Shown: positions 5,833-31,231 of the stretch, one piece after another | Layout of the letters: each line of letters starts with the position of its first letter | Numbering within the stretch: position 1 is the first letter of the stretch | Virus record (IMG/VR): IMGVR_UViG_3300023175_002400 | Location: 1-41,696 of that record | DNA: 41,696 nt | Source of the DNA: a virus | Direction: 5' to 3' (one strand) | Notes under the pieces: model-generated | The model's input: only the letters and a program-made list of their open reading frames with translations | Database searches by the model: none | What the model was told of the DNA's origin: nothing | Position numbers and translations under genes: made by a program

Positions 5833-6270
5833 CTATTCCTTTTCAGGAACAGGTTCAGTAATATCAACCTTTTTAGGTTTACGACTTTCTGGAATAATGT
5901 TTTCTAAAAATACCTTCAACATACCATTAGTTAATTCCGAACTTTGAACCTCTACAGTATCAGCAAGTTCAAAAGATCGTTTGAATGCACGATTGGCAAT
6001 ACCCTTATGGACAAAATTTTCTGATTCATCAGTCTTAGATTTACCAGAAAGAACTAGAGTATTTTCCTTCACTTCAACTTCCAGTTCATTTTTACAGAAA
6101 CCAGCAACTGCCACTTCAACCCTATATTTGTTTTCGTCTAACTTAACAATATTATAGGGAGGGAATGAATACATTGCTTTTGAATAATCTGTGTTCAAAC
6201 TTTGAACACGATTAAACATCTCATCAAAACCAACTGTGAAAGCTTTAAATAGTGGATCGTTTTTAGTCAT
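5833..6270 (-). CDS. hsp20: Small heat-shock protein, Hsp20/IbpA family
   Basis: This is an ATP-independent holdase chaperone of the alpha-crystallin family. The N-terminus (SFPPYNIVKLDENKYRVEVA) and the alpha-crystallin domain, roughly residues 38-130, match the IbpA type, with the conserved sequence VAVAGFCKNELEVEV near residue 53 and a C-terminal extension. The length (145 aa) is typical. A strong AGGAGA lies just before the ATG. The gene has its own consensus sigma-70 promoter, a 5' hairpin and a terminator, so it is a single-gene unit. Hsp20 genes are a recurring marker of marine T4-like phages and may assist capsid assembly; that role is inferred. Confidence 0.95.
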   Translation of the reverse strand: MTKNDPLFKAFTVGFDEMFNRVQSLNTDYSKAMYSFPPYNIVKLDENKYRVEVAVAGFCKNELEVEVKENTLVLSGKSKTDESENFVHKGIANRAFKRSFELADTVEVQSSELTNGMLKVFLENIIPESRKPKKVDITEPVPEKE

Positions 6271-7240: not shown

Positions 7241-7545
7241 GTGTTTCTACACATCCACATATAATCTTTTTTACAAGATTTATATTGCCTCAGATACCAT
7301 CTGTCACGAAAATGCTTATATTCTTCTCTCCAATGTGAACAATATCGTCTTGCTCTACGATGACAAATTTGCCTACGACGATATCTTTGCCAATGTTTAT
7401 CATTTTTATCAATCCTAAAATCAAATCCTTTAGGTCCAATATTCAATTCAAAACTTGGTCCTGCTCTTACAGCAGAAACACCGAATGCAATAGTAATAGC
7501 AGCAACTGCTGCAATTGTCAACAAAACTTTTCCTGTAGTGTTCAT
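7237..7545 (-). CDS. Exported Arg-rich small protein
   Basis: The N-terminus (about residues 1-28) is a signal peptide or membrane anchor with an Ala-rich hydrophobic core ending in VRAG. The mature part, residues 29-102, is strongly basic and aromatic, with RYRRR and HRRARRY runs and five cysteines that could form disulfides. It is predicted periplasmic. The stop overlaps purS and the start overlaps asnB (ATGA at both), giving a tight asnB-this gene-purS operon. No family is recognised. The polycationic nature suggests binding to envelope polyanions or nucleic acid; that is inference. Confidence 0.75.
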   Translation of the reverse strand: MNTTGKVLLTIAAVAAITIAFGVSAVRAGPSFELNIGPKGFDFRIDKNDKHWQRYRRRQICHRRARRYCSHWREEYKHFRDRWYLRQYKSCKKDYMWMCRNT

Positions 7546-9098
7546 TTTATTATATCCTCTAATAAACTTATATTTTTCAATGCATTTTTAAAATTACTTT
7601 TTTCATTCCTAGAATTCCAAGGAGATGCCCAACCAACTTTTATATTTTTATTTATGACCCAAGAAGGAAGATCATCTTTAAATAATTCTCTTAATAGATA
7701 TTTGTATGTCCCCGATCTAAAATTATTTCTTTTCTTTTGAAGTTTATATTTTCCAGATATATTAAGACAGTTTTTTACTAATTCTTGGTATAAAAATGGA
7801 CTTCTAGATTCCATAGAAAAATTAGAAGCTAAGCTATCAGAAGATAAACAAAAGGAATCTATTGATAACATAATCCTAATAAAAAAATTATTGTTCATTT
7901 CGTCCTTTCCAAGAACGTGTTTAGGAAACCATTCATAAAACTCATCATGTAAAATTTCATATTTAAATTTTGGAAAGTTTGGATTTTTGTAAAGATCATG
8001 ACCACTATATCCAGTAAAAATTTCATCACCACCATCTCCATTTATTATTACCTTACATCCAAGATCGTGTGCTTTTTTATATGTTAAGTATCTAACCACA
8101 TACCTATTGTCATCAAAAAATGGTAACAAACTACATTTGATAGAATCTTTTACTGAATCTCTTAACTCAGAAATTGATATTGTTTTATCATAGAAAGGAA
8201 TATTATAAAACTTAGATGTTTTTTTTGCATAATTAACTTCTTCCGTATAGTTAAGCATACTATCATAATCTTCATCTTTTTTTAAATCATATAACGATTT
8301 ATATCCACATGAAAGTGAAAATAAATCCATATCTAAATTCTTAGAACAATTTAATATTGTAGTAGAATCCAATCCTCCAGATAAAAGAACACATGTGCTA
8401 TTATTATTATATACCGTATTAACAATAGATTTCTCTATCAATTTCTTTATTTTTTTATCATTTGGTTTTTGGTTTTCCATTTGAAAATCAAATAAAGAAC
8501 CACGACTTATTATTTTATTTTTTTTAACAGAAAATTTTATATATTCTCCTGGAACTAATTTTTTTATATTTTTATAAAATGTATCACGCCCTTGCCAAAA
8601 CCTATCATTAAAAAGAAATCTTTTAATGGATTCTCTATCTTTCTCTAAGTCTATACCGACACTTTTAAGAGAATATATACTACTACTAAAAACCAATCCA
8701 TTATCTAAATTATAAAATAAAGGCCTTTGACCATAATGATCTCTAGCAATAGTGATAGTTTTAGTTTTTTTCTCATACCAACATAATGAAAACGCACCAT
8801 TAATATTTCTTAAATATTCTATACCATAATAATCTAACATTTCTGATAAATATTTTGTATCTAAGTAACATTCTTTATATATTTGGCCATTAAATACTAA
8901 AACATTTCCTTTAGGAGAAATATATGGTTGAGTTGTTTCTTCTATAGGAAGATTTGATATATTTAAAAGATTGTGTCCTAGTGATACAAAATCATCAATA
9001 TAAATGTCATTAGCGTCTGGTCCTCTATTTTCAGACACTAGTATCATGTTCTTTATGTGTTTGTAATTTTTAAATGAGAACCCATGTATTCCACACAT
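7542..9098 (-). CDS. asnB: Asparagine synthase, glutamine-hydrolysing (AsnB-type)
   Basis: This enzyme is predicted to hydrolyse glutamine and amidate a carboxylate activated with ATP, normally aspartate to asparagine. The N-terminal class II glutaminase domain starts with the catalytic Cys2 (MCGIHGF) and has the RGPDA, NGQIY and GAFS motifs. The synthetase domain has the pyrophosphate loop SGGLDST at residues 240-246 and NGDGGDE at 353-359. All key residues are present. At 518 aa it is slightly shorter than E. coli AsnB (554 aa). AsnB-like proteins in surface-glycan clusters can amidate other acids, so the substrate is not certain. A consensus promoter lies 50 bases upstream. Confidence 0.93.
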   Translation of the reverse strand: MCGIHGFSFKNYKHIKNMILVSENRGPDANDIYIDDFVSLGHNLLNISNLPIEETTQPYISPKGNVLVFNGQIYKECYLDTKYLSEMLDYYGIEYLRNINGAFSLCWYEKKTKTITIARDHYGQRPLFYNLDNGLVFSSSIYSLKSVGIDLEKDRESIKRFLFNDRFWQGRDTFYKNIKKLVPGEYIKFSVKKNKIISRGSLFDFQMENQKPNDKKIKKLIEKSIVNTVYNNNSTCVLLSGGLDSTTILNCSKNLDMDLFSLSCGYKSLYDLKKDEDYDSMLNYTEEVNYAKKTSKFYNIPFYDKTISISELRDSVKDSIKCSLLPFFDDNRYVVRYLTYKKAHDLGCKVIINGDGGDEIFTGYSGHDLYKNPNFPKFKYEILHDEFYEWFPKHVLGKDEMNNNFFIRIMLSIDSFCLSSDSLASNFSMESRSPFLYQELVKNCLNISGKYKLQKKRNNFRSGTYKYLLRELFKDDLPSWVINKNIKVGWASPWNSRNEKSNFKNALKNISLLEDIIK

Positions 9099-9834: not shown

Positions 9835-10063
9835 CTTTTCCTCGCAAACGGTCAAATAACTCAGTATATCCACCAATGAATTCTTCATTGATAAGAACTA
9901 CAGGAAAAGTTTTTTGTGTGGGATATTTTTCTTTGATTTCTTCACGAGTAAAATCTCTATCCAAATGTTTTTCTGTATATTTTATATTATTCATTTTTAG
10001 TAGTGCTTTTGCATTATTACAAAAAACACATTCAGATTTTGTATATAAAACTACATTTTTCAT
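9824..10063 (-). CDS. grx: Glutaredoxin
   Basis: This thiol-disulfide oxidoreductase has active site CVFC at residues 12-15, a cis-proline motif TFPVVLI and the glutathione-binding GGYTEL. The length of 79 aa fits phage and bacterial glutaredoxins. In T4 the analogous NrdC reduces ribonucleotide reductase. Here it sits in the nucleotide cluster with a class II RNR whose C-terminal Cys pair needs such a reductant. It overlaps the deaminase gene upstream by four bases. Confidence 0.93.
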   Translation of the reverse strand: MKNVVLYTKSECVFCNNAKALLKMNNIKYTEKHLDRDFTREEIKEKYPTQKTFPVVLINEEFIGGYTELFDRLRGKDEV

Positions 10064-10506
10064 AACAAGTCATATCCTCCATTGTCTAATGTATAGTATA
10101 CTTTTTTTATATTAAATGTTGATATTGCTTTCATACATCCATCACAAGGTTTAGCAAGACCAAATACAAATTTCTTTTTATAAATTTTTACTCTACAAAT
10201 ATAAAGTATAGAATTTGAAAACTTTTCTAAATCTATTTTATTTATAGCATTTTTAATAACATCTGTCTCTGCGTGAAGATAAATAGCATCTTTATTCTTA
10301 CAATATCTTTTTTGAAATGGATGTGTCTTACTTCTATTTACGCCAATTGAAATCAAATTATTTCTATACACTATACCTGCAGCGATTCTTGCTTGTGCTA
10401 CAGGTTCTACATTAATTGCTATTTGGGATAGTGTATTAATATATCTTGAGTGTCTAATTTTTCCTGATTGTTTTGGTGATATATTGCTAATATTTTTGTA
10501 TACCAT
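10060..10506 (-). CDS. Zinc deoxycytidylate/cytidine deaminase-like protein
   Basis: The zinc-dependent deaminase signature is present: HAE at residues 78-80 (proton-shuttle Glu) and PCDGC at 120-124 (two Cys ligands). The 148-aa length and neighbours (MazG, glutaredoxin, ThyX, RNR) suggest dCMP deaminase, which would supply dUMP to ThyX. The fold is clear; the exact substrate (dCMP, cytidine, or a related nucleotide) is not. The start lies inside the upstream mazG gene (20-base overlap) with only a weak ribosome-binding site. Confidence 0.82.
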   Translation of the reverse strand: MVYKNISNISPKQSGKIRHSRYINTLSQIAINVEPVAQARIAAGIVYRNNLISIGVNRSKTHPFQKRYCKNKDAIYLHAETDVIKNAINKIDLEKFSNSILYICRVKIYKKKFVFGLAKPCDGCMKAISTFNIKKVYYTLDNGGYDLL

Positions 10507-11740: not shown

Positions 11741-12379
11741 TTATTCCTTATTTTCTAGATTATTATCTCCGTAAAAATATTCATCATTTGTGCTTATATT
11801 TCTACTATTTTCTACAGAATATATAGATAAATCTATTTCATAACCTGGATTTTTCTTTATTCTTTTAAAAATAAAAGACTCATCATACCAAATTATTCTA
11901 TTATTTGGATAAGCATAATAATTACCAGTTTCTACTTTAAATAAATGTGCACATTTGTGTTCTGGTGATTCAGAAAAATTAAAATCTGTTATTGATTTAT
12001 TTTCCCAAGACCAATCTAAAGTAAACATATATATTCCATTTACCCTTTTTCCATCAGGTCTTATAAGTTCAGCTTTTAAATTATCAAGTCTAGATCTTTT
12101 TTGAACATCTATATAAGGTGAAAATGAATTCCAGTACATAATTTGATTTAAAGGTTCTATTTCTGAATCTGGATTCCAACAAAAAGCATGTAAAGGTCTT
12201 CTTGTCCAATTTACACCATTTTCTAATAATGCTTCAAATAAAGGAACTCTTTTTTCAATTGATGATACTGTATGAACATCACACTTAGTCACTTCTTTAT
12301 GTCCTTTTTTATGATTATAAAGAAACTCATTTCTTATATAACAAGGCCAATCTGGCAATGGATGATTTAAATAAGACAC
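11741..12379 (-). CDS. Hypothetical protein, 212 aa, Trp/Tyr-rich
   Basis: I do not recognise a family. The sequence is aromatic-rich and of mixed beta type (HAFCWNPD, YMFTLDWSWENK, NRIIWYDESF), soluble, with no signal peptide or known catalytic signature. It starts right after the RNR terminator, so it is the first gene of its transcript, but I see no consensus promoter before it. The regular composition and intact length support a real gene. Confidence 0.75.
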   Translation of the reverse strand: MSYLNHPLPDWPCYIRNEFLYNHKKGHKEVTKCDVHTVSSIEKRVPLFEALLENGVNWTRRPLHAFCWNPDSEIEPLNQIMYWNSFSPYIDVQKRSRLDNLKAELIRPDGKRVNGIYMFTLDWSWENKSITDFNFSESPEHKCAHLFKVETGNYYAYPNNRIIWYDESFIFKRIKKNPGYEIDLSIYSVENSRNISTNDEYFYGDNNLENKE

Positions 12380-14506: not shown

Positions 14507-15163
14507 TTATATCTCCAGAGTTTCTAAAAATGGATATACTTTAACAAGAACATCCCAACACTGTTGAGCAACTACACGATGCTCTTTCTGTGTTTCTGGA
14601 CCCATACGAAGTTGACAATAGTGAATCCAATCACGAACAGTACCATTCATATACATACGAGACATAGTAAGACCTTCTGGTAAAACAGCACGAGCTTGTT
14701 CTTTCGCAATACCATTTTCTATTGCCCATTTATAAGCAAGTTTTGTTTCATGAATAAGTTGATCTTGTTTTATTTTCCAGGATTTAGTCATTTCATTGTC
14801 TTCATCAACCTCAATAGAATTTTGTCTATTTTTAGCATCCTGAAGACGAAATTCTCTTGTTTCAAACCCAAGTTCATTTGGGTCAGCGTATCGTTGAGAA
14901 AATTCCTGAAAATGAAATGACCTATGACGAAGAATCTGTCTAGCAATATCACGAGTTGTATTTATCTCAAGAACAACATTACACATCTCAAAAACAGACC
15001 AATGTTTATTTCTAACACAATAATTTAAAAGTTTTTCTGCTGTTTCTGAATTATTTTGATTAGATGGATTTGACACTCGTGCACAGTATGCCATAATATC
15101 TTGTGATGTTATACCAGCAATCTCTTTTGATTGTGTATATGCAATCAATTTTACTTCACTCAT
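14507..15163 (-). CDS. thyX: FAD-dependent thymidylate synthase ThyX
   Basis: ThyX converts dUMP to dTMP with methylenetetrahydrofolate, NADPH and FAD. The signature RHRSFHFQEFSQRY at residues 79-92 is a form of the ThyX motif RHRxxSxxxxSxR. The C-terminal part (QARAVLPEGLTMSRMYMNGTVRDWIHY) is also typical. The length of 218 aa is normal. It sits directly upstream of the RNR operon members, consistent with dNTP supply for a very AT-rich genome. The start codon overlaps the preceding stop (TAATG). Confidence 0.96.
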   Translation of the reverse strand: MSEVKLIAYTQSKEIAGITSQDIMAYCARVSNPSNQNNSETAEKLLNYCVRNKHWSVFEMCNVVLEINTTRDIARQILRHRSFHFQEFSQRYADPNELGFETREFRLQDAKNRQNSIEVDEDNEMTKSWKIKQDQLIHETKLAYKWAIENGIAKEQARAVLPEGLTMSRMYMNGTVRDWIHYCQLRMGPETQKEHRVVAQQCWDVLVKVYPFLETLEI

Positions 15164-19836: not shown

Positions 19837-20817
19837 CTATTCGTAACTCATAATTTTAGTTCCTTCGTCATAGAATTTGAAAGGAAAAATCTTACAATTT
19901 GTTTTATTTTTAAGAGTATGAATAACTTCCTCTCTTTTATCTTCCTTTACATAAAATACAAAGAATCCTCCACCACCAGCACCTAACAATTTGCCTCCAA
20001 TAGCACCAGATTCTTTTGCTATATTGTAAATATTATCCAAATAATCCTCTGTAATATCATTTACAATCTGTCTCTTATTTATCCAAGATTGATGTAAAAG
20101 ATCACCAAAAGAGTCTAAATCTCCAGATAAAATATATTTTATTCCTTCAAATGCCAAATCTCTATTCTGTCTAACTTTATTAAATTTTTCATCATTTAAC
20201 ATAGCATCAGATTGTTTTTGAAGAAAATCATTTCCAACTCTACCTCTTCCACTGTACACTAACAATAAATTATCATTTAATCTTGGAATATTATTATTAT
20301 ATATTTTCCTAACTCTAACATTTCCATCACTATAGAATCTTAGTAAGTTAAACCCACCATAAGAAGCTGCATATTGGTCTTGCTTTCCTACAGGATATCC
20401 ACACCTATTCATCTCAATATCACAAGCACGTTTTGCTATTGTTTCTTTTAATGCATCTGTATTATTTATCTTAAATAGACTATTAACAAGACCTACAGTA
20501 AAGGCAGAAGACGAACCAAGACCAGAACCATTTGAAAATATATCTGATAAAGATGCTATTGTTATTTCAGAATCTATATTAAAAAGTTTAAGAGATTCTT
20601 TTGAAATAATATGCTTCATTTCTTCAATGTTATCTGATTCATCAACAACATCAAACATAGTTTTAATAGGAAGATTTGGTGTTTTTCTCACAATAACGTG
20701 AATAAACTTATCTATTGTTACAGAAAGAGCAGCACCATCTTCTCTTTTGTAGAATGCAGGGGTATCACTACCCCCACTAAAGAAACTAATTCTTAAAGGT
20801 GTTTTCGAAACTATCAT
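19837..20817 (-). CDS. hddA: GHMP sugar kinase, HddA-like heptose-7-phosphate kinase
   Basis: This is predicted to phosphorylate D-glycero-D-manno-heptose 7-phosphate at C1. The GHMP signature GSGLGSSSA is at residues 97-105, the N-terminal RISFFSGGSDTP and central GYPVGKQDQYA blocks are typical of the HddA/mevalonate-kinase-like sugar group, and GGKLLGAGGGGFFVF closes the domain. Length 326 aa, as HddA. It is the last gene of the sugar cassette and overlaps the glycosyltransferase by four bases. Fucose-type kinase relatives cannot be excluded by eye, but the GmhA and GmhB partners favour heptose. Confidence 0.88.
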   Translation of the reverse strand: MIVSKTPLRISFFSGGSDTPAFYKREDGAALSVTIDKFIHVIVRKTPNLPIKTMFDVVDESDNIEEMKHIISKESLKLFNIDSEITIASLSDIFSNGSGLGSSSAFTVGLVNSLFKINNTDALKETIAKRACDIEMNRCGYPVGKQDQYAASYGGFNLLRFYSDGNVRVRKIYNNNIPRLNDNLLLVYSGRGRVGNDFLQKQSDAMLNDEKFNKVRQNRDLAFEGIKYILSGDLDSFGDLLHQSWINKRQIVNDITEDYLDNIYNIAKESGAIGGKLLGAGGGGFFVFYVKEDKREEVIHTLKNKTNCKIFPFKFYDEGTKIMSYE

Positions 20818-21812
20818 TGTGAATCATATACAAACACTTCTGATGGTTTGCCTCTAGATTCTTTTTCTTTATATTCATCAAGAAGATTTTTCATCATAAG
20901 TTCCCACATACCTTTAATTCTCTGAATATTATATCGAGAATCTACAAATGTTTTATTGAAGTTAATCATATCTTTGTGGTTGTTGCTTTTAACAAACTCA
21001 ATAGCAGCATTCAAATGATTTACAAACACATTTGCGTGTTTTCCTTTATCACTATTTCCCTGATACATAATATTCAAAGAACCAGAAGTTTCTGCTAATG
21101 CACCATAGTTTGGATGTACACAAACAAGACCAGCAGACATTGCTTCTAACATTGCTCTACAGCTTGTCTCTACCCAGGTAGAAGGATAGGCAAAAATATG
21201 TGATTTGTTTAGGTGTTCTTTTAGTTCATTGTTTGGAACAAATCCGTGATATGTCATATTTGGATGTTCTCTAATCTCATCATATAATGGTTCGAACTGT
21301 TTATCCATTTCGTCCCAACCATAAATTTTAAAACTTGAAAACACATCAAGATGAATATTCTTATGACGTTCTGTCAAATATTTAAACACTGGAACAAGAA
21401 TCTCTAGTCCTCGTTGTGGTGTTGATGTATATACCAATCTAATTGTGTCATTATCTTTTTGTAAACAAGATTCTGGTGCTGGTTCAATACCACTTTCCAA
21501 AACAATAGATTTATCATCATATGGAAGATTGTGAACTAGTTGATATCTTTGATATTGCCAGTCACTAATAAACACAAACTTATGAAAACTATCTAAAAAT
21601 TCTTTATCTTTGAATTTTGCTGATTCTGGGTCTTCTGGCAAATCGTGGCACCAGAAAACTCTAATTTTTTCCCAATCAAAATCTCTTTGTCTGGAACAAA
21701 TAATTTGAAACTCTTCAAGAAGTTTTGGGTCAATAATATCACCAAGCATTCTTTTAGCAATTTCAGTTCCACCATTTGCATTTTCTGAAATTTCGTTCTC
21801 TTCAAATCCCAT
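20814..21812 (-). CDS. Glycosyltransferase, GT4 (group 1) type
   Basis: The C-terminal half has the GT-B nucleotide-sugar site: LVYTSTPQRGLEIL, a HGFVPNNEL block, and the E-x7-E-type YPSTWVETSCRAMLEAMSAGLVCV. The N-terminus is short for a GT-B enzyme (332 aa in total), but NGGTE, WCHDLP and FISDWQ are typical. It probably transfers the sugar made by this cassette. The acceptor (host lipopolysaccharide, virion protein or DNA) is unknown. It starts at a TAATG junction with the transaldolase. Confidence 0.85.
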   Translation of the reverse strand: MGFEENEISENANGGTEIAKRMLGDIIDPKLLEEFQIICSRQRDFDWEKIRVFWCHDLPEDPESAKFKDKEFLDSFHKFVFISDWQYQRYQLVHNLPYDDKSIVLESGIEPAPESCLQKDNDTIRLVYTSTPQRGLEILVPVFKYLTERHKNIHLDVFSSFKIYGWDEMDKQFEPLYDEIREHPNMTYHGFVPNNELKEHLNKSHIFAYPSTWVETSCRAMLEAMSAGLVCVHPNYGALAETSGSLNIMYQGNSDKGKHANVFVNHLNAAIEFVKSNNHKDMINFNKTFVDSRYNIQRIKGMWELMMKNLLDEYKEKESRGKPSEVFVYDSQ

Positions 21813-22543
21813 TAGTCTATCCTGTATCCTGATTTTACTGCATCATCGTAAAACATTTGAACTGTTTCAATTGAAAACAAATCTAAATCTTTTCCGAATT
21901 TATCTACCTTTTTAATTAAATCTGGTGACATTGTAATAATTTCACAACCAGATTTTTCTGCTTGAACATAATTATATGCTTCTCTTGAAGAAGCCCAAAG
22001 AAACTCAATAGGTGTTCTTGGTTTCACTAATTTTCTATATAAAATAGATTCACTAATAATTTCTTCTGGATTTACTCCAGTATCTGCTATTCTACCAGCA
22101 AATATTGATATAATCATCGGAGTTTCAGAAACAACTCTTTCTATAACATCTACAACTTGATCTGTTGTAAAAACAGCTGTAACATTTAATTTTACATTTT
22201 CAAAATTAAGAGTATCAATAACATCATAGTTATTAATCCCTTTTGTATTTTGAATTGGAATCTTTACATAAACATCATAGTCTCGCTCTTTACCCCAAGA
22301 ATCAATTTTTCTTGCTTGATGAATCATTTCTTCTTTTTCATCAGCAAACACTTCTAGACTTAAAGATGTATTTGGTCTATTTTCTGCTAGATATTTAATA
22401 ACTTTTTTTGAAAATTCTTCGTAATTTTCAACACCTGCTTCCCGCATCAGTGTTGGATTTGTAGTAAATCCTACTACTTTTTCGTTCTTTGAAAGCTCAA
22501 CGATACTATCATAATCAGCACCATCAGCAAATAATTTAACCAT
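21812..22543 (-). CDS. Transaldolase-family protein (TalC-like)
   Basis: This class I aldolase-fold enzyme has FADGADYDSI and GFTTNPTLM at the N-terminus, the Schiff-base Lys in VYVKIPIQN, NVTAVFT and SIFAGRIADTG. At 243 aa it is nearer the short TalC/fructose-6-phosphate aldolase group than full-length transaldolase. In this cassette it could supply sedoheptulose 7-phosphate from pentose phosphate intermediates, feeding the GmhA-type isomerase. I chose the ATG at 22543 with GGAG upstream; an in-frame TTG adds four residues. It overlaps the phosphatase gene by eight bases. Confidence 0.87.
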   Translation of the reverse strand: MVKLFADGADYDSIVELSKNEKVVGFTTNPTLMREAGVENYEEFSKKVIKYLAENRPNTSLSLEVFADEKEEMIHQARKIDSWGKERDYDVYVKIPIQNTKGINNYDVIDTLNFENVKLNVTAVFTTDQVVDVIERVVSETPMIISIFAGRIADTGVNPEEIISESILYRKLVKPRTPIEFLWASSREAYNYVQAEKSGCEIITMSPDLIKKVDKFGKDLDLFSIETVQMFYDDAVKSGYRID

Positions 22544-23048
22544 ATTTATCTCCAATAAGTTTACAAGCGTCTAATACATTATCAACTGCATAATGTGGCA
22601 TAGTATATAGACATTTATCATAGGTTCCAAGAAAAATAGTAATCAAGTTCATTCTATTTCCTGCCATAACATCTTTCCATCTATCACCAATCATAAATGA
22701 TGATTCTACATCAATATCATATTTATCAATCAAATGTTCTAACATACCAGTATTTGGTTTATATAGTTCTGAGTTTCTATCAAAAGCAATCATAATATCA
22801 TCTATTTCAAGTTCCATTTCTAAATGTTTTGTTATTTCATTTAGAGTATCCATAGTCATTTTTTCATCTTTTACATCAGGTTGATTAGTGACTACAAATA
22901 TTAAATATCCTAAATCTTTAACAAGTCTAACTGCTTCTGTTGCACCATCAATAAATTTAAACTCTCCAAAAGTCCAAGGTGCTCTATTATCAACTAGATG
23001 ATTCAGTGTTCCATCTCTGTCAAAAAATATTGCTTTTTGTTTTACCAT
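22536..23048 (-). CDS. gmhB: HAD phosphatase, GmhB-like (heptose bisphosphate)
   Basis: This is predicted to remove the 7-phosphate from heptose 1,7-bisphosphate. The HAD motifs are DRDGT (D10 nucleophile, D12), VVTNQPDV, KPNTGML (motif III Lys) and MIGDRWKDV (motif IV). Canonical GmhB has a four-ligand Cys/His zinc loop before the KP motif; here that region reads AFDRNSELY with no cysteine, so this is a zinc-less form. I chose the ATG at 23048 inside the isomerase gene end; an upstream start would add 16 unrelated residues. Histidinol- or other sugar-phosphatase activity is possible. Confidence 0.82.
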   Translation of the reverse strand: MVKQKAIFFDRDGTLNHLVDNRAPWTFGEFKFIDGATEAVRLVKDLGYLIFVVTNQPDVKDEKMTMDTLNEITKHLEMELEIDDIMIAFDRNSELYKPNTGMLEHLIDKYDIDVESSFMIGDRWKDVMAGNRMNLITIFLGTYDKCLYTMPHYAVDNVLDACKLIGDKYG

Positions 23049-23623
23049 TTTGTTGGATTCACTTGTAAATCTGGATGTGAAACTAAACAATGCCAAATAA
23101 CTGCTTGAAATGCTTCTGAGTGTGGAGTAACTCTATTTTCTTTAATGTACGGAACTACAACAGAAGCATTAGAAGCACGAACAGCATAACCATTAGGTTT
23201 TCCCACAATAGAAAGAACTGTTCCACCTTTTTTTCTAGCATAGTCAATCGCATTGATAAGATTAACTGATACATTTTTTTCTTTGCTTCCTCCACCAACT
23301 GAAAGAACAAACACACAATCATATTCACTAAATCTTGAAACTTTTAAATACTCAACAAATGTAGTTTCAAACCCTTCATCATTTGTTCTTGCTGATAATT
23401 CACTTACATTATCTGTAGGAGCATATGCCTCAATACCACAAAGTTTTCTTAAATCATTTACCATATGAGAAGCATTTGCTGCTGAACCACCAACACCTAA
23501 AACAAATACTCTACCCATATCTTTATAATCTTTTAGATAAGCAACCATTTTATGAATTGATTGTCTGTCAATTCCCAGTGCAATATCTTGAACTTCATAC
23601 ATATAATTATTGATGTGATTCAT
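23042..23623 (-). CDS. gmhA: SIS-domain isomerase, GmhA-like sedoheptulose-7-phosphate isomerase
   Basis: This is predicted to convert sedoheptulose 7-phosphate to D-glycero-D-manno-heptose 7-phosphate. The SIS phosphosugar motifs are VLGVGGSAANASHM and VLSVGGGSKEKNVS. The C-terminal HSEAFQAVIWHCLVSHP supplies the Glu/His helix of GmhA proteins. The length of 193 aa is standard. It overlaps the nucleotidyltransferase by 17 bases and the phosphatase by seven, so the three steps are translationally coupled. Confidence 0.9.
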   Translation of the reverse strand: MNHINNYMYEVQDIALGIDRQSIHKMVAYLKDYKDMGRVFVLGVGGSAANASHMVNDLRKLCGIEAYAPTDNVSELSARTNDEGFETTFVEYLKVSRFSEYDCVFVLSVGGGSKEKNVSVNLINAIDYARKKGGTVLSIVGKPNGYAVRASNASVVVPYIKENRVTPHSEAFQAVIWHCLVSHPDLQVNPTKW

Positions 23624-24029
23624 TAATTCTATTCCTCAATTCACTTGAACTAAAAGTATGTTTTCTAGATGTAAAGTATATAGTTATATTTCTTTCATTA
23701 CATATACTTTCTCCAGTTATATCAATTCCTGAATTATTATACTCTTCTCCTAAAAATCTAATACCAATATCCTCAACACACAGTAGGTTTTCTAAATCTT
23801 GCTCTGTGTCATATGGAATGACATCATCTACATATTCACACCCTTTTAGTTGTAAATATCTTTCATAAACACTCTGAATTGGTTTATTTTTTGTTGTAGG
23901 TCTGTCAATAGTTGGATCGGTGTGTAATCCCACAATCAAATATTCACAGTGTTCTTTACATTCTTTTAACATCGCAATATGACCTGCGTGAAGCAAATCA
24001 AAAGCACCGCAAGTAAACCCTATTATCAT
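23607..24029 (-). CDS. Cytidylyltransferase-fold nucleotidyltransferase, HldE C-domain/TagD-like
   Basis: The HxGH motif (HAGH, residues 14-17) after GFTCGAFDLL, the PTTKNKPIQSVYERY segment and the C-terminal SSSELRNRI (ISSTxxR-like) mark the nucleotidyltransferase superfamily. At 140 aa it is a lone domain. In this cassette it most likely activates heptose 1-phosphate to a nucleotide-heptose (ADP-heptose if HldE-like). Glycerol-3-phosphate cytidylyltransferase is the main alternative, since the family assignment by eye cannot fix the substrate. Confidence 0.85.
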   Translation of the reverse strand: MIIGFTCGAFDLLHAGHIAMLKECKEHCEYLIVGLHTDPTIDRPTTKNKPIQSVYERYLQLKGCEYVDDVIPYDTEQDLENLLCVEDIGIRFLGEEYNNSGIDITGESICNERNITIYFTSRKHTFSSSELRNRINESHQ

Positions 24030-24031
24030 TA

Positions 24032-24286
24032 TTAATAACCATCTATAATTTGAACATATCTAACATTAGCAATATCAAAAGTGAAATATTCACCATTCAT
24101 TACATTAAATGCTGAAATAAGTTTTTTATTTTCCTCGTGAAACTTCTTCTCTTCCTTATAATCTTCTTCAATATATCTTTTAGGTAAAAGATCTGGTTTA
24201 AGTGTAAGTCTTACTACACCTTCATTGAAAGTGATTTCAATAACATTATGTCTTAAATCTTTTAAGACTTCATTTCTATTGAACAT
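24032..24286 (-). CDS. Small conserved phage protein, DUF2693-like, 84 aa
   Basis: The pattern of an N-terminal VLKDLRHNVIEITF strand pair, TLKPDLLPKRY, and a C-terminal FTFDIANVRYVQI resembles small T4-like phage proteins of the DUF2693 kind, which I assign with modest confidence. It looks like a small beta fold. It lies in the sugar cassette but is probably unrelated to it. Confidence 0.6.
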   Translation of the reverse strand: MFNRNEVLKDLRHNVIEITFNEGVVRLTLKPDLLPKRYIEEDYKEEKKFHEENKKLISAFNVMNGEYFTFDIANVRYVQIIDGY

Positions 24287-24287
24287 A

Positions 24288-24980
24288 TTATTCTTTCCTG
24301 TAACTTGCTTTAATATTTTGTTTTTCTAATATTTTAAATCCATTGTTAAATAAAGATTCTTCAGTTTTGTCGTGGTCATACATCCAAATATCGTCGTAAA
24401 CAAAAACAGTTCCTGATACAGACCTTTCTAAAAAGAAATCTGTTTCTAAAGTTACTGATTTATTATCGTGAGGACCATCAAAAAATACAAATGCATATTG
24501 ATTTAAAAGTGTTTTTTCATCATTATATACAGGAACACCATCTGAATATCTATTGAAAAATTCGTAGTCTTCTAAACAAAAGAAATTAAAATTAAGACCA
24601 GCATCATAAGCATAGTAATATAACGATGGGATGACACGATTCCTCATTTTATTATCATAATCAAATGTTTGCTTAGATGTAATTTCTTTTGACTGAGGAT
24701 CGCCTTCAATTTTTCTTTCAGGATTATGTAGAGTCATATTAAGATTAGTACAATCAATCTCAATATTACCATATGGGTCAATACAGAACATTGACCTATT
24801 TGTATTATTGTTACCAACAAGAGTATCAATAATCATTTTAGCAGAACCACCTCTCCGTGTGCCAATCTCAACAATTGCACCTTCAGTATTTTCTACTTTA
24901 GCAACAGCATTTACAAGAATTTCATACTCCTGCGAATCTGTTCCAAAAACTTCCTCATCACTAAATCTAATAATAGTCAT
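24288..24980 (-). CDS. Class I SAM-dependent methyltransferase-like protein
   Basis: The Rossmann motif I is VEIGTRRGGSA (residues 37-47), followed by FCIDPYG (motif II acidic residue), YAFVFFDGPHD and TVFVYDDIWMYD. This is the arrangement of Methyltransf_24-type enzymes, often found in surface-polysaccharide clusters. Length 230 aa. It is the first gene of the sugar cassette and starts just after a terminator, so its promoter must lie within or just past that hairpin; none is obvious. It could methylate a sugar or glycan end. Confidence 0.78.
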   Translation of the reverse strand: MTIIRFSDEEVFGTDSQEYEILVNAVAKVENTEGAIVEIGTRRGGSAKMIIDTLVGNNNTNRSMFCIDPYGNIEIDCTNLNMTLHNPERKIEGDPQSKEITSKQTFDYDNKMRNRVIPSLYYYAYDAGLNFNFFCLEDYEFFNRYSDGVPVYNDEKTLLNQYAFVFFDGPHDNKSVTLETDFFLERSVSGTVFVYDDIWMYDHDKTEESLFNNGFKILEKQNIKASYRKE

Positions 24981-25771: not shown

Positions 25772-25913
25772 GCTTTTTTTTCCTTATAACTTTTGAATGG
25801 CTGTCTGCCATCATAGCAAATTTAAATCTATATACAAAATCATACTCTTTAGGTTCATATACTTTAACTATAGTCACAAACTCGTTAATTGTGCCAACGA
25901 CCTCGGTGGTCAT
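25755..25913 (-). CDS. Putative small protein, 52 aa
   Basis: The frame continues past the end of the M15 peptidase gene and codes for a soluble peptide with VYEPKEYDFVYRFKFAMMAD in the middle and a basic KVIRKKKL end. The start at 25913 overlaps the peptidase gene by 29 bases and has no good ribosome-binding site; GTG codons upstream are alternatives. It fills the only space before the tRNA-operon promoter. The call is tentative. Confidence 0.42.
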   Translation of the reverse strand: MTTEVVGTINEFVTIVKVYEPKEYDFVYRFKFAMMADSHSKVIRKKKLDNDT

Positions 25914-26496
25914 CGATGTGGATATGATTAAATCGGCCTGAGTATGTCCCAACACCACCACCCCATGTTGTTTTCAGATAACGTGCAACCTGTCTATATT
26001 TTCCCCGTGGTGGATTAAAGTCCACTGCTCGGCAATATCTATGCATTGAAGGTCTACCAGTTTTTCTTACTGTTGCACCTGGACGACAAGATGATGAAAT
26101 GCGAATTTTACCAAACTTAGATTCAACAACACGTAATTTATTTGCTACAGAAACTGGCATTCTGTGTCCTTTAAATTTTGTTAACCCAGAACGTGCCACT
26201 CTACTTTTTCGTGATTTGTAAATTCTTTTCTTAGCATACCTTCTTTTTTTGGAATATACTTTTTTCTTAGCGTATCTTTTTCTCTTAGAATATACTTTTT
26301 TCTTAGCATATCTTTTTCTCTTAGAATATACTTTTTTCTTAACAATTTTTTGTTTGTAAAATACCGGTTGTCCATCAACCCATTTAATGGCCGCTTCTGC
26401 TTTTGTTGATGTTAGTGCAACTAACACAAACACTAAAACAATAAGAAATCCTACTCCAATTGAGTAAAAACGATTAAACACTTTCTTTCTCCTCAT
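25885..26496 (-). CDS. Exported M15-type peptidase with basic tandem repeats
   Basis: An N-terminal signal peptide or anchor (about residues 1-36, hydrophobic core IGVGFLIVLVFVLVAL, AEA end) is followed by three 12-residue basic repeats (KKKVYSKRKRYA type, residues 53-88) plus a degenerate fourth. The C-terminal domain is of the M15/YcbK zinc peptidase kind: SSCRPG, SMHRYCRAVDF (H152, D159) and NHIHID (H191, H193, D195). It probably cuts peptidoglycan peptides in the periplasm and could be a lysis enzyme or an envelope remodeller. The repeats may bind lipopolysaccharide or nucleic acid. It is the third of three consecutive exported proteins. Confidence 0.85.
   Translation of the reverse strand: MRRKKVFNRFYSIGVGFLIVLVFVLVALTSTKAEAAIKWVDGQPVFYKQKIVKKKVYSKRKRYAKKKVYSKRKRYAKKKVYSKKRRYAKKRIYKSRKSRVARSGLTKFKGHRMPVSVANKLRVVESKFGKIRISSSCRPGATVRKTGRPSMHRYCRAVDFNPPRGKYRQVARYLKTTWGGGVGTYSGRFNHIHIDDHRGRWHN
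26233..26340 (-). repeat. Three tandem 36-base repeats in the peptidase gene
   Basis: Units occupy 26305-26340, 26269-26304 and 26233-26268, with a degenerate fourth unit to about 26197. Each codes for a KKKVYSK(R/K)(K/R)RYA block. The first two units are nearly identical in DNA, which points to recent duplication and possible copy-number variation. They lie within coding sequence with no spacers, so they are not a CRISPR array. Confidence 0.92.
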
Positions 26497-30379: not shown

Positions 30380-31231
30380 TTATTTCTTTTTAGCTTTAGA
30401 AAGATTAGAAGGGTCTGCTGTTGCTGCAGCACCAATTGCTGCAAGGTCTGCAAGAGAACCACCAAAAATATACGAACCAACATGTTGAAGTTGCATCCAA
30501 GGACATAGCCAAGTTTTAAGTCCTGCTTCTTGTGCTTTTTGACAGAACCAATAATCTTCTGATAAATATCGCTTTGTTTTTGGATCAATTTCTGCTTGGA
30601 AATATTGCATAATTTCACGAGATCCATCAAAATGTTCTGTTCTTACATGATCTGGTTTATACATATACTCTTTATATGATTCTTGAAATTTAGACATTGC
30701 ATTTTTTGTAACCATCATAAATCCAGTTCCAATTTCTAAAACTTCCACTGGATCAGATAGCTTAATTTGATTTTGACCACTTTTTGGATTAAACACATAA
30801 TCTCCTACAAACTTTTCTAGAACATTACTTTCTTCATCAGCAACTCCTTTATCTACTGCTCTTTTAATTTTTTCCCAAGAAATACACTTCTTAGGATATG
30901 GCCCACCAATAATATCATAGTCTTCATTTTGAGACTGAAGTGCCATAAGTGCAATAACATCTTGTGGATTGAATCCAATATCAGAGTCAATAAACATAAG
31001 ATGGTTTGCATCAGACCTCATAAATTCATCACAACAATAGTTTCGTGCCCTAGTAATCAAGGATTCATTAAACATAAAATATAATTGTAATGGAATTTGG
31101 TGTTTAGCACAAAATGCTGATAGATCTGCTACACTCTTGGTAAACATACCAGCACACTGTCCGCCATACATGGGCGTAGCAATAAACAGTTTATTTTTTC
31201 TAAGAGTTTCTATTTCAATTTTTATTTCCAT
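30380..31231 (-). CDS. GT-A glycosyltransferase-like protein in the replication operon
   Basis: A GT-A-type core is seen: KLFIATPMYGGQ at the N-terminus, a DxD-like LMFIDSDIGF near residue 95, EIGTGFMMVTK near 165 and SEDYWFCQKAQEAG near 220. The Gly/Ala-rich C-terminal tail is low complexity. Related proteins occur in T4-like cyanophages, as I recall, close to gp45. Whether it glycosylates DNA, a virion protein or an envelope target is unknown. It overlaps the deformylase-like gene by 17 bases. Confidence 0.75.
   Translation of the reverse strand: MEIKIEIETLRKNKLFIATPMYGGQCAGMFTKSVADLSAFCAKHQIPLQLYFMFNESLITRARNYCCDEFMRSDANHLMFIDSDIGFNPQDVIALMALQSQNEDYDIIGGPYPKKCISWEKIKRAVDKGVADEESNVLEKFVGDYVFNPKSGQNQIKLSDPVEVLEIGTGFMMVTKNAMSKFQESYKEYMYKPDHVRTEHFDGSREIMQYFQAEIDPKTKRYLSEDYWFCQKAQEAGLKTWLCPWMQLQHVGSYIFGGSLADLAAIGAAATADPSNLSKAKKK

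Follow-up and report, generated by a model that had tools for sequence, protein, structure and literature searches.

A transaldolase-containing operon of T4-like phages as a putative route to a nucleotide-activated heptose

Results

An eight-gene cassette in a T4-like virus

The 41.7 kb IMG/VR virus record IMGVR_UViG_3300023175_002400, analyzed over its full 41,696 nucleotides (the window), comes from a large virus of water bacteria and has T4-like phage gene content, with genes for a replicative helicase, UvsX-like recombinase, DNA polymerase, primase, major head protein, clamp, and clamp loader, and its major head protein is closest, among named phages, to that of Stenotrophomonas phage DLP6 (70%). 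Eight consecutive minus-strand open reading frames (ORFs), running from 24980 to 19837, form a cassette with a transaldolase, an isomerase, a kinase, and a glycosyltransferase among its products (Table 1). The first-pass annotation had read seven genes in a row here as a nucleotide-heptose route; every gene it named is present, on the minus strand and in its assigned place, but the 84-aa ORF had gone uncounted. Its claim that the six catalytic genes from the nucleotidyltransferase to the kinase are coupled by overlaps of 1-17 bases held, as we measured 17, 7, 8, 1, and 4 bases between nucleotidyltransferase, isomerase, phosphatase, transaldolase, GT4, and kinase. These figures use the starts that homologues support, which are ATG 23048 for the phosphatase (the mechanical ORF begins too early, at TTG 23096) and ATG 22543, preceded by GGAG, rather than TTG 22555 for the transaldolase. 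Linkage is looser for the methyltransferase and for the 84-aa ORF, and homologues of the latter are found in most relatives, adjoining a glutaredoxin gene. GC content is 30.3% within the operon and 29.9-30.8% outside it. A reading of the cassette as a defense system was dropped, since none of its genes was matched in PADLOC.

Table 1. Genes of the cassette, followed by other genes of the window mentioned in the text or seen in passing
Feature	Position	Strand	Evidence or remark
Methyltransferase, Methyltransf_24 / TylF-like	24288..24980	-	Pfam PF13578 34 bits
84-aa ORF, phrog_1086, no assigned function	24032..24286	-	
Nucleotidyltransferase, CTP_transf_like	23607..24029	-	PF01467 59 bits; phrog_7878 119 bits
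SIS-domain isomerase, GmhA-like	23042..23623	-	gmhA profiles 48 bits
HAD-IIIA phosphatase, GmhB-like	22536..23048	-	PRK08942 GmhB 87 bits
Transaldolase, TIGR02134 subfamily	21812..22543	-	TIGR02134 263 bits
GT4-family glycosyltransferase	20814..21812	-	PF00534 48 bits; phrog_2170
GHMP kinase, HddA-like	19837..20817	-	NF049969 HddA 156 bits
GT-A-like protein, phrog_1574	30380-31231	-	weak likeness to GT-A transferases
Hsp20 chaperone	5833-6270	-	auxiliary gene
Asparagine synthase-like glutamine amidotransferase	7542-9098	-	PF00733, PF13522
dCMP deaminase-like protein	10060-10506	-	auxiliary gene
Phrog family annotated as ferredoxin	11741-12379	-	auxiliary gene
ThyX-type thymidylate synthase	14507-15163	-	auxiliary gene
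ORF with Lys/Arg/Tyr-rich repeat (KKRYAKK), then peptidase-like part	25885-26496	-	from the translation only

Viral relatives were collected by searching viral contigs with the kinase and the isomerase and then comparing all window genes. About 20 divergent viral loci, with protein identities of roughly 40-75%, keep the same gene order (nucleotidyltransferase, isomerase, phosphatase, transaldolase, GT4, kinase, then a region with RNase H and PhoH), so the cassette is not a chance arrangement. The constant core across these loci consists of transaldolase, isomerase, GT4, and kinase. The methyltransferase, whose homologues are 63-81% identical, lies directly upstream of the nucleotidyltransferase in locus L041, with a 4-base overlap; in L030 and L035 it is also upstream, at a distance of 2-3 kb. 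In trees, the phage isomerases, transaldolases, and kinases are each monophyletic, with support of 99, 99, and 100 in the Shimodaira-Hasegawa-like approximate likelihood ratio test (SH-aLRT); the cellular sequences in these trees are an incomplete sample, picked for their likeness to the phage transaldolase. This placement fits a single old acquisition, and the cassette is probably a stable operon of a T4-like phage lineage, acquired once long ago. Homing-endonuclease-like ORFs, as judged by their sequences, were also seen in or near the cassettes of relatives (L020:4597-5220, L023:6300-6779, and L129:15621-16103), and at the end of the L020 contig a GIY-YIG-like ORF stands where the transaldolase would be.

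Nearest families of the cassette enzymes

The transaldolase and the kinase are nearest to the families first proposed for them. The TIGR02134 score of the transaldolase (Table 1) is slightly under the cut-off of 282 bits, a PDB sequence search with the phage alignment returned transaldolases, and T28, N29, E64, K94, and F148 are invariant across 14 phage and 80 cellular homologues (94/94). A Schiff-base Lys with Glu and Phe marks transaldolase, whereas Gln and Tyr mark fructose-6-phosphate aldolase (FSA); the phage enzyme joins catalytic K94 to E64 and F148 and lacks the Gln/Tyr pair of FSA. For the kinase, the NCBIfam HddA profile scored 156 bits and the next GHMP family 64, the curated HddA cut-off being 600. 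Its PDB sequence matches are HddA (3k85 at 8e-54, and also 4n3o; range 1e-52 to 1e-54), and the motifs GSGLGSSS, GKQDQY, and GAGGGG are intact.

GmhA is the nearest relative of the SIS isomerase by NCBIfam profile (48 bits, below the TIGR00441 cut-off of 209 bits), by a PDB sequence search with the phage alignment, in which phosphoheptose isomerases rank first, and by an AlphaFold model with a predicted local distance difference test score (pLDDT) of 83, whose top Foldseek PDB folds are GmhA at a template modeling (TM) score of about 0.73. The phosphatase has GmhB as its best NCBIfam profile (PRK08942, below the curated cut-off) and as its PDB sequence match (3l8e, 1e-17), and it keeps the HAD motifs DxD, TNQ, K, and GDxxxD, with D8, D10, T52, K95, D120, and D124 invariant in an alignment of 11 sequences whose reference row sets the numbering. 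For isomerase, kinase, and phosphatase, profile and PDB sequence searches agree in giving heptose-pathway enzymes as the best matches. The nucleotidyltransferase is less clear-cut, as its best NCBIfam profile is rfaE_dom_II (67 bits; the cut-off of 181 is not reached), with TagD at 53 bits, and its PDB matches are cytidylyltransferases, the nearest being ethanolamine-phosphate cytidylyltransferase; the motifs HxGH and SSxxLR are invariant among 11 phage sequences. By sequence the enzyme is equally near CTP-using enzymes and RfaE domain II.

The GT4 assignment stood on its Pfam match and on the GT-B fold of its AlphaFold model (pLDDT 86). Fold searches of PDB structures and of viral models with it gave general GT-B matches that do not discriminate the acceptor, as they include the protein O-glycosyltransferases GtfA and SdgB and, equally, TarM, BshA, SenB, and PimA. 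Sequence searches of the PDB with GT4 and with the GT-A-like protein found no match for either. Homologues of GT4 occur in DLP6 (44%), Caulobacter phage Cr30 (42%), and Sinorhizobium phages including phiM12 (40%), and further ones in Rhizobium phages, Ochrobactrum phages, and two Pelagibacter podophages. Those of the GT-A-like protein are found in largely the same named phages and also in Synechococcus phages, and its gene adjoins the clamp gene, gp45, in the window and likewise in L134, DLP6, Cr30, and phiM12. The two genes lie in the replication/early region of T4-like phages, and in the Pelagibacter podophages HTVC027P and HTVC023P they are adjacent and overlap inside the structural module. 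GT4 and the GT-A-like protein probably work together, and GT4 is the proposed user of the nucleoside diphosphate (NDP)-sugar. The methyltransferase, correctly named as a member of the row, is a possible sugar O-methyltransferase.

Cellular clusters with the same core

Genome contigs were scanned with the transaldolase alignment, and the 80 top-ranking bacterial and archaeal loci were analyzed. The same isomerase subfamily lies near the transaldolase in 68/80 loci and the phosphatase in 61/80, and the isomerase-transaldolase pairs are mostly on one strand (63/67) and within 1.5 kb (58/67), with a median gap of 0.56 kb. In a first type of cluster the neighbors are SDR, Gfo/Idh, an HddA-like kinase, and an HddC-like nucleotidyltransferase (L042, L096, and L100). 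A second type has two epimerases and a fusion of RfaE domain II (N-terminal) with RfaE domain I (C-terminal), that is, a domain-swapped HldE, which is demonstrated for L044 (L044:11874-13427), the other matches being mostly 500-545 aa long. HldE-like fusions with the nucleotidyltransferase first and a PfkB kinase second were seen in L044 and about 20 more cellular loci. The HddA-like kinase is present in 24 loci and RfaE domain II, almost always as part of a fused, domain-swapped HldE, in 25, and both in only 1 (Fisher p 2e-4, uncorrected for descent). Because two unrelated heptose kinases attach to one core, this exchange gives the best indication that heptose 7-phosphate is what the core would supply.

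A second transaldolase is encoded elsewhere in 11 of the 12 cluster-bearing genomes examined, and several such genomes also hold a better GmhA match, which makes the copies in the clusters look dedicated. GtrA-like and GT2 genes follow the cluster in L042 and L100, suggesting that these clusters serve surface glycans. No paper describing the isomerase-transaldolase cluster was found in the open literature searched, and it is apparently undescribed so far in bacteria and archaea.

Discussion

We consider it likely that this operon of a T4-like phage makes a nucleotide-activated heptose that is passed to GT4. This is the best reading of the cassette because the cellular core pairs either with HddA- and HddC-like enzymes or with a domain-swapped HldE, and we infer the substrates, step order, anomer, nucleotide, and acceptor from protein families, synteny, residues, and the cellular clusters. 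Fructose 6-phosphate and erythrose 4-phosphate would be the substrates from which the transaldolase forms sedoheptulose 7-phosphate; the isomerase would turn this into aldoheptose 7-phosphate, the HddA-like kinase would add a phosphate at C1, and the phosphatase would remove the 7-phosphate. The small nucleotidyltransferase would then convert the sugar 1-phosphate to NDP-heptose, from which GT4 would transfer the heptose, and O-methylation of the sugar or the glycan may be the task of the methyltransferase. The pathway assembled in the first-pass annotation survives as heptose-like chemistry, as all best profiles belong to heptose-route enzymes or transaldolase, but not as an orthologue set of GmhA, HddA, GmhB, and HldE. 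Its suggestion that the product could act as a heptose-phosphate signal found no support.

Several observations weigh against a heptose route. None of the five pathway enzymes attains the curated cut-off of its named pathway enzyme, so by sequence they are distant family members. In known pathways HddA is the alpha-anomer enzyme and RfaE domain II the beta-anomer enzyme, and an HddA-like kinase with an RfaE-II-like nucleotidyltransferase is therefore an odd anomer pairing. The phosphatase is of the GmhB type in its best matches and HAD motifs but not throughout, as the zinc-binding Cys/His loop of E. coli GmhB is absent from 11/11 sequences and is also unaligned in the PDB comparison. The zinc ligands of GmhA, His-Glu-Gln-His, are reported to be fully conserved among orthologues, and mutants in them are inactive (PMC5705639). 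When the phage isomerase is aligned with E. coli GmhA and relatives, these positions are taken by H53, D57, E170, and H178, and this H-D-E-H quartet replaces H-E-Q-H in all isomerases compared, 14/14 from phages and 67/67 from cellular clusters. The phosphate-loop residues T120 and S121 of GmhA are V and G, and the loop is altered throughout both groups. The fold and nearest matches uphold the GmhA-type label, but because of the quartet the isomerase is best described from its sequence as GmhA-like, a distinct subfamily and not a GmhA orthologue, and with the phosphate loop changed as well its substrate may differ from that of GmhA.

The gene content of relatives adds to these points. Loci L020-L028 are without the nucleotidyltransferase, and none was found on the 95 kb contig of L028; L025, L029, and L034 have neither phosphatase nor nucleotidyltransferase, and L041 has no phosphatase. 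Genes for an epimerase, an SDR, and a Gfo/Idh oxidoreductase are part of the L025 and L029 cassettes. In phiM12 and Rhizobium phage I1_18, GT4 stands shortly ahead of RNase H and PhoH with no pathway seen beside it, so GT4 is probably older than the heptose pathway.

Known systems share parts of this layout. The ADP-heptose pathway for lipopolysaccharide (LPS; GmhA, HldE, GmhB, HldD, and WaaC) is alike in the isomerase, phosphatase, and nucleotidyltransferase families and in the order of the chemistry, but the phage has a GHMP instead of a PfkB kinase, a separate small nucleotidyltransferase, a dedicated transaldolase, and a variant isomerase site, and no HldD epimerase was seen in the cassette. 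The HddA/HddC-type route is closest in its kinase, and several cellular clusters also have an HddC-like enzyme, whereas the phage cassette has no HddC-type nucleotidyltransferase, includes a transaldolase, and has an isomerase that by its residues is no GmhA orthologue.

Among phages, a tblastn search of named phages with the cassette isomerase gave no match, and named-phage relatives were located through the kinase, GT4, and nucleotidyltransferase instead. The locus of Cr30 encodes a glycosyltransferase, a D,D-heptose 7-phosphate kinase, a phosphoheptose isomerase, an epimerase, and TagD, with the GT4 homologue adjoining the HddA-like kinase (35%) and the isomerase; on a closed record, the TagD-like nucleotidyltransferase would be about 6 kb from them. 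Its isomerase also has H-D-E-H but is of another subfamily (48 versus 345-369 bits), as if phages had twice put together a similar sugar donor for GT4. No transaldolase or HAD phosphatase was found in the region examined. The cyanophages Bellamy and SynMITS9220M01 have HddA-like kinases, the latter also an SIS isomerase, again H-D-E-H and of a different subfamily, and a nucleotidyltransferase relative; they differ in gene order, in extra epimerases, and in kinases just 28% identical, and no transaldolase resembling TIGR02134 was seen in the regions examined. The annotated "phosphoheptose isomerase" of Bellamy is 102 aa long and fails to match the isomerase profile. SIS isomerases with H-D-E-H outside the cluster subfamily were noted in L151 (Magnetospirillum sp. 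UT-4), Cr30 (L002:7124-7723), and SynMITS9220M01 (L004:15549-16055). Pelagimyophages, T4-like phages of water bacteria, carry rfaE and glycosyltransferases as LPS-related auxiliary metabolic genes (PMC7029224), but these are scattered or in a host-recognition cluster and mostly of GT8, and the available sections of that paper mention no transaldolase. Phage-borne sugar-nucleotide genes and partial pathways are thus already known, and the new elements are the dedicated transaldolase and the variant isomerase.

As to what would receive the heptose, our tentative first choice is a glycan of the host cell envelope, whose alteration could change the surface against later phages. This rests on the cellular clusters and on the argument made for pelagimyophage glycosyltransferases, for which O-chain or surface modification has been proposed (PMC7029224). 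A virion protein is a doubtful second candidate, in which GT4 and the GT-A-like protein would glycosylate it, with heptose in this lineage. The overlapping pair in the structural module of HTVC027P and HTVC023P and the GtfA and SdgB fold matches speak for it, while the replication/early location of both genes in T4-like phages and the presence of TarM, BshA, SenB, and PimA alongside these among the fold matches speak against it.

The same chemistry could also serve a sugar other than D-glycero-D-manno-heptose, such as another heptose epimer, a pentose, or an octose, carried as a CDP- or ADP-sugar. The altered zinc quartet and phosphate loop of the 14 phage and 67 cellular isomerases, the nearness of the nucleotidyltransferase to CTP-using enzymes, and the extra epimerase, SDR, and Gfo/Idh genes of the cellular clusters would agree with this. 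We find it improbable, as the kinase is far nearer HddA than any other GHMP family, two different heptose kinases substitute for each other in the clusters, and the signature residues of the transaldolase are intact. A further idea to which we give little weight is that the isomerase-phosphatase-transaldolase core is an undescribed nucleotide-sugar pathway of bacteria and archaea, in which a dedicated transaldolase and an altered zinc isomerase would lead to a non-LPS heptose, adopted by the phage lineage and joined to an older glycosyltransferase that decorated virions or DNA.

Phage DNA is an unlikely acceptor. Under this explanation GT4, the GT-A-like protein, or both would be DNA glycosyltransferases that place heptose on DNA against restriction, and it draws on the position of the GT-A-like gene beside the clamp gene, on the shared phage distribution of the two genes, on DLP6 DNA being listed as restriction enzyme resistant (PMC8228603), and on the TET/JBP and TET-associated glycosyltransferase (TAGT) genes of cassette-bearing L035 and of DLP6. 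However, TET and TAGT alone could account for the resistance of DLP6 DNA, and may explain it, and no TAGT is present in the window, which is a fragment, or in phiM12 or Rhizobium I1_18. No protein of the dCMP hydroxymethylase/thymidylate synthase family (PF00303) was found among 11 relatives searched, the thymidylate synthase of the window is ThyX, and those of phiM12 and I1_18 look ordinary; the family is present in 3/5 named phages, two with the PFNI motif of thymidylate synthases and Cr30 with PYNI. The GT4/GT-A pair among tail and structural genes of the two podophages also argues against a role on DNA. The TET/JBP dioxygenase (PF12851) and TAGT (PF20691) genes of a cassette-bearing relative lie at L134:2788-4206 and L134:4206-4994, and those of DLP6, whose TET/JBP gene is annotated "SNF2 DNA repair protein," lie at L166:680-2026 and about 24.2-24.9 kb of KU682439.2.

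Cyanophages commonly carry transaldolase genes, but it is very unlikely that this one is a mere pentose-phosphate auxiliary gene with no tie to its neighbors, as it belongs to another subfamily (TIGR02134 263 bits versus 102 for phrog_440) and adjoins the isomerase in every relative whose contig is both long and intact enough to show this, and also in the cellular clusters.

If the operon does make an activated heptose, a phage lineage keeps, as a single operon, almost all of the steps that lead from central metabolism to that sugar, and what T4-like phages glycosylate with an otherwise orphan GT4 would become directly testable. The comparison also reveals that clusters with a transaldolase that would serve sugar-nucleotide synthesis are widespread in cells.

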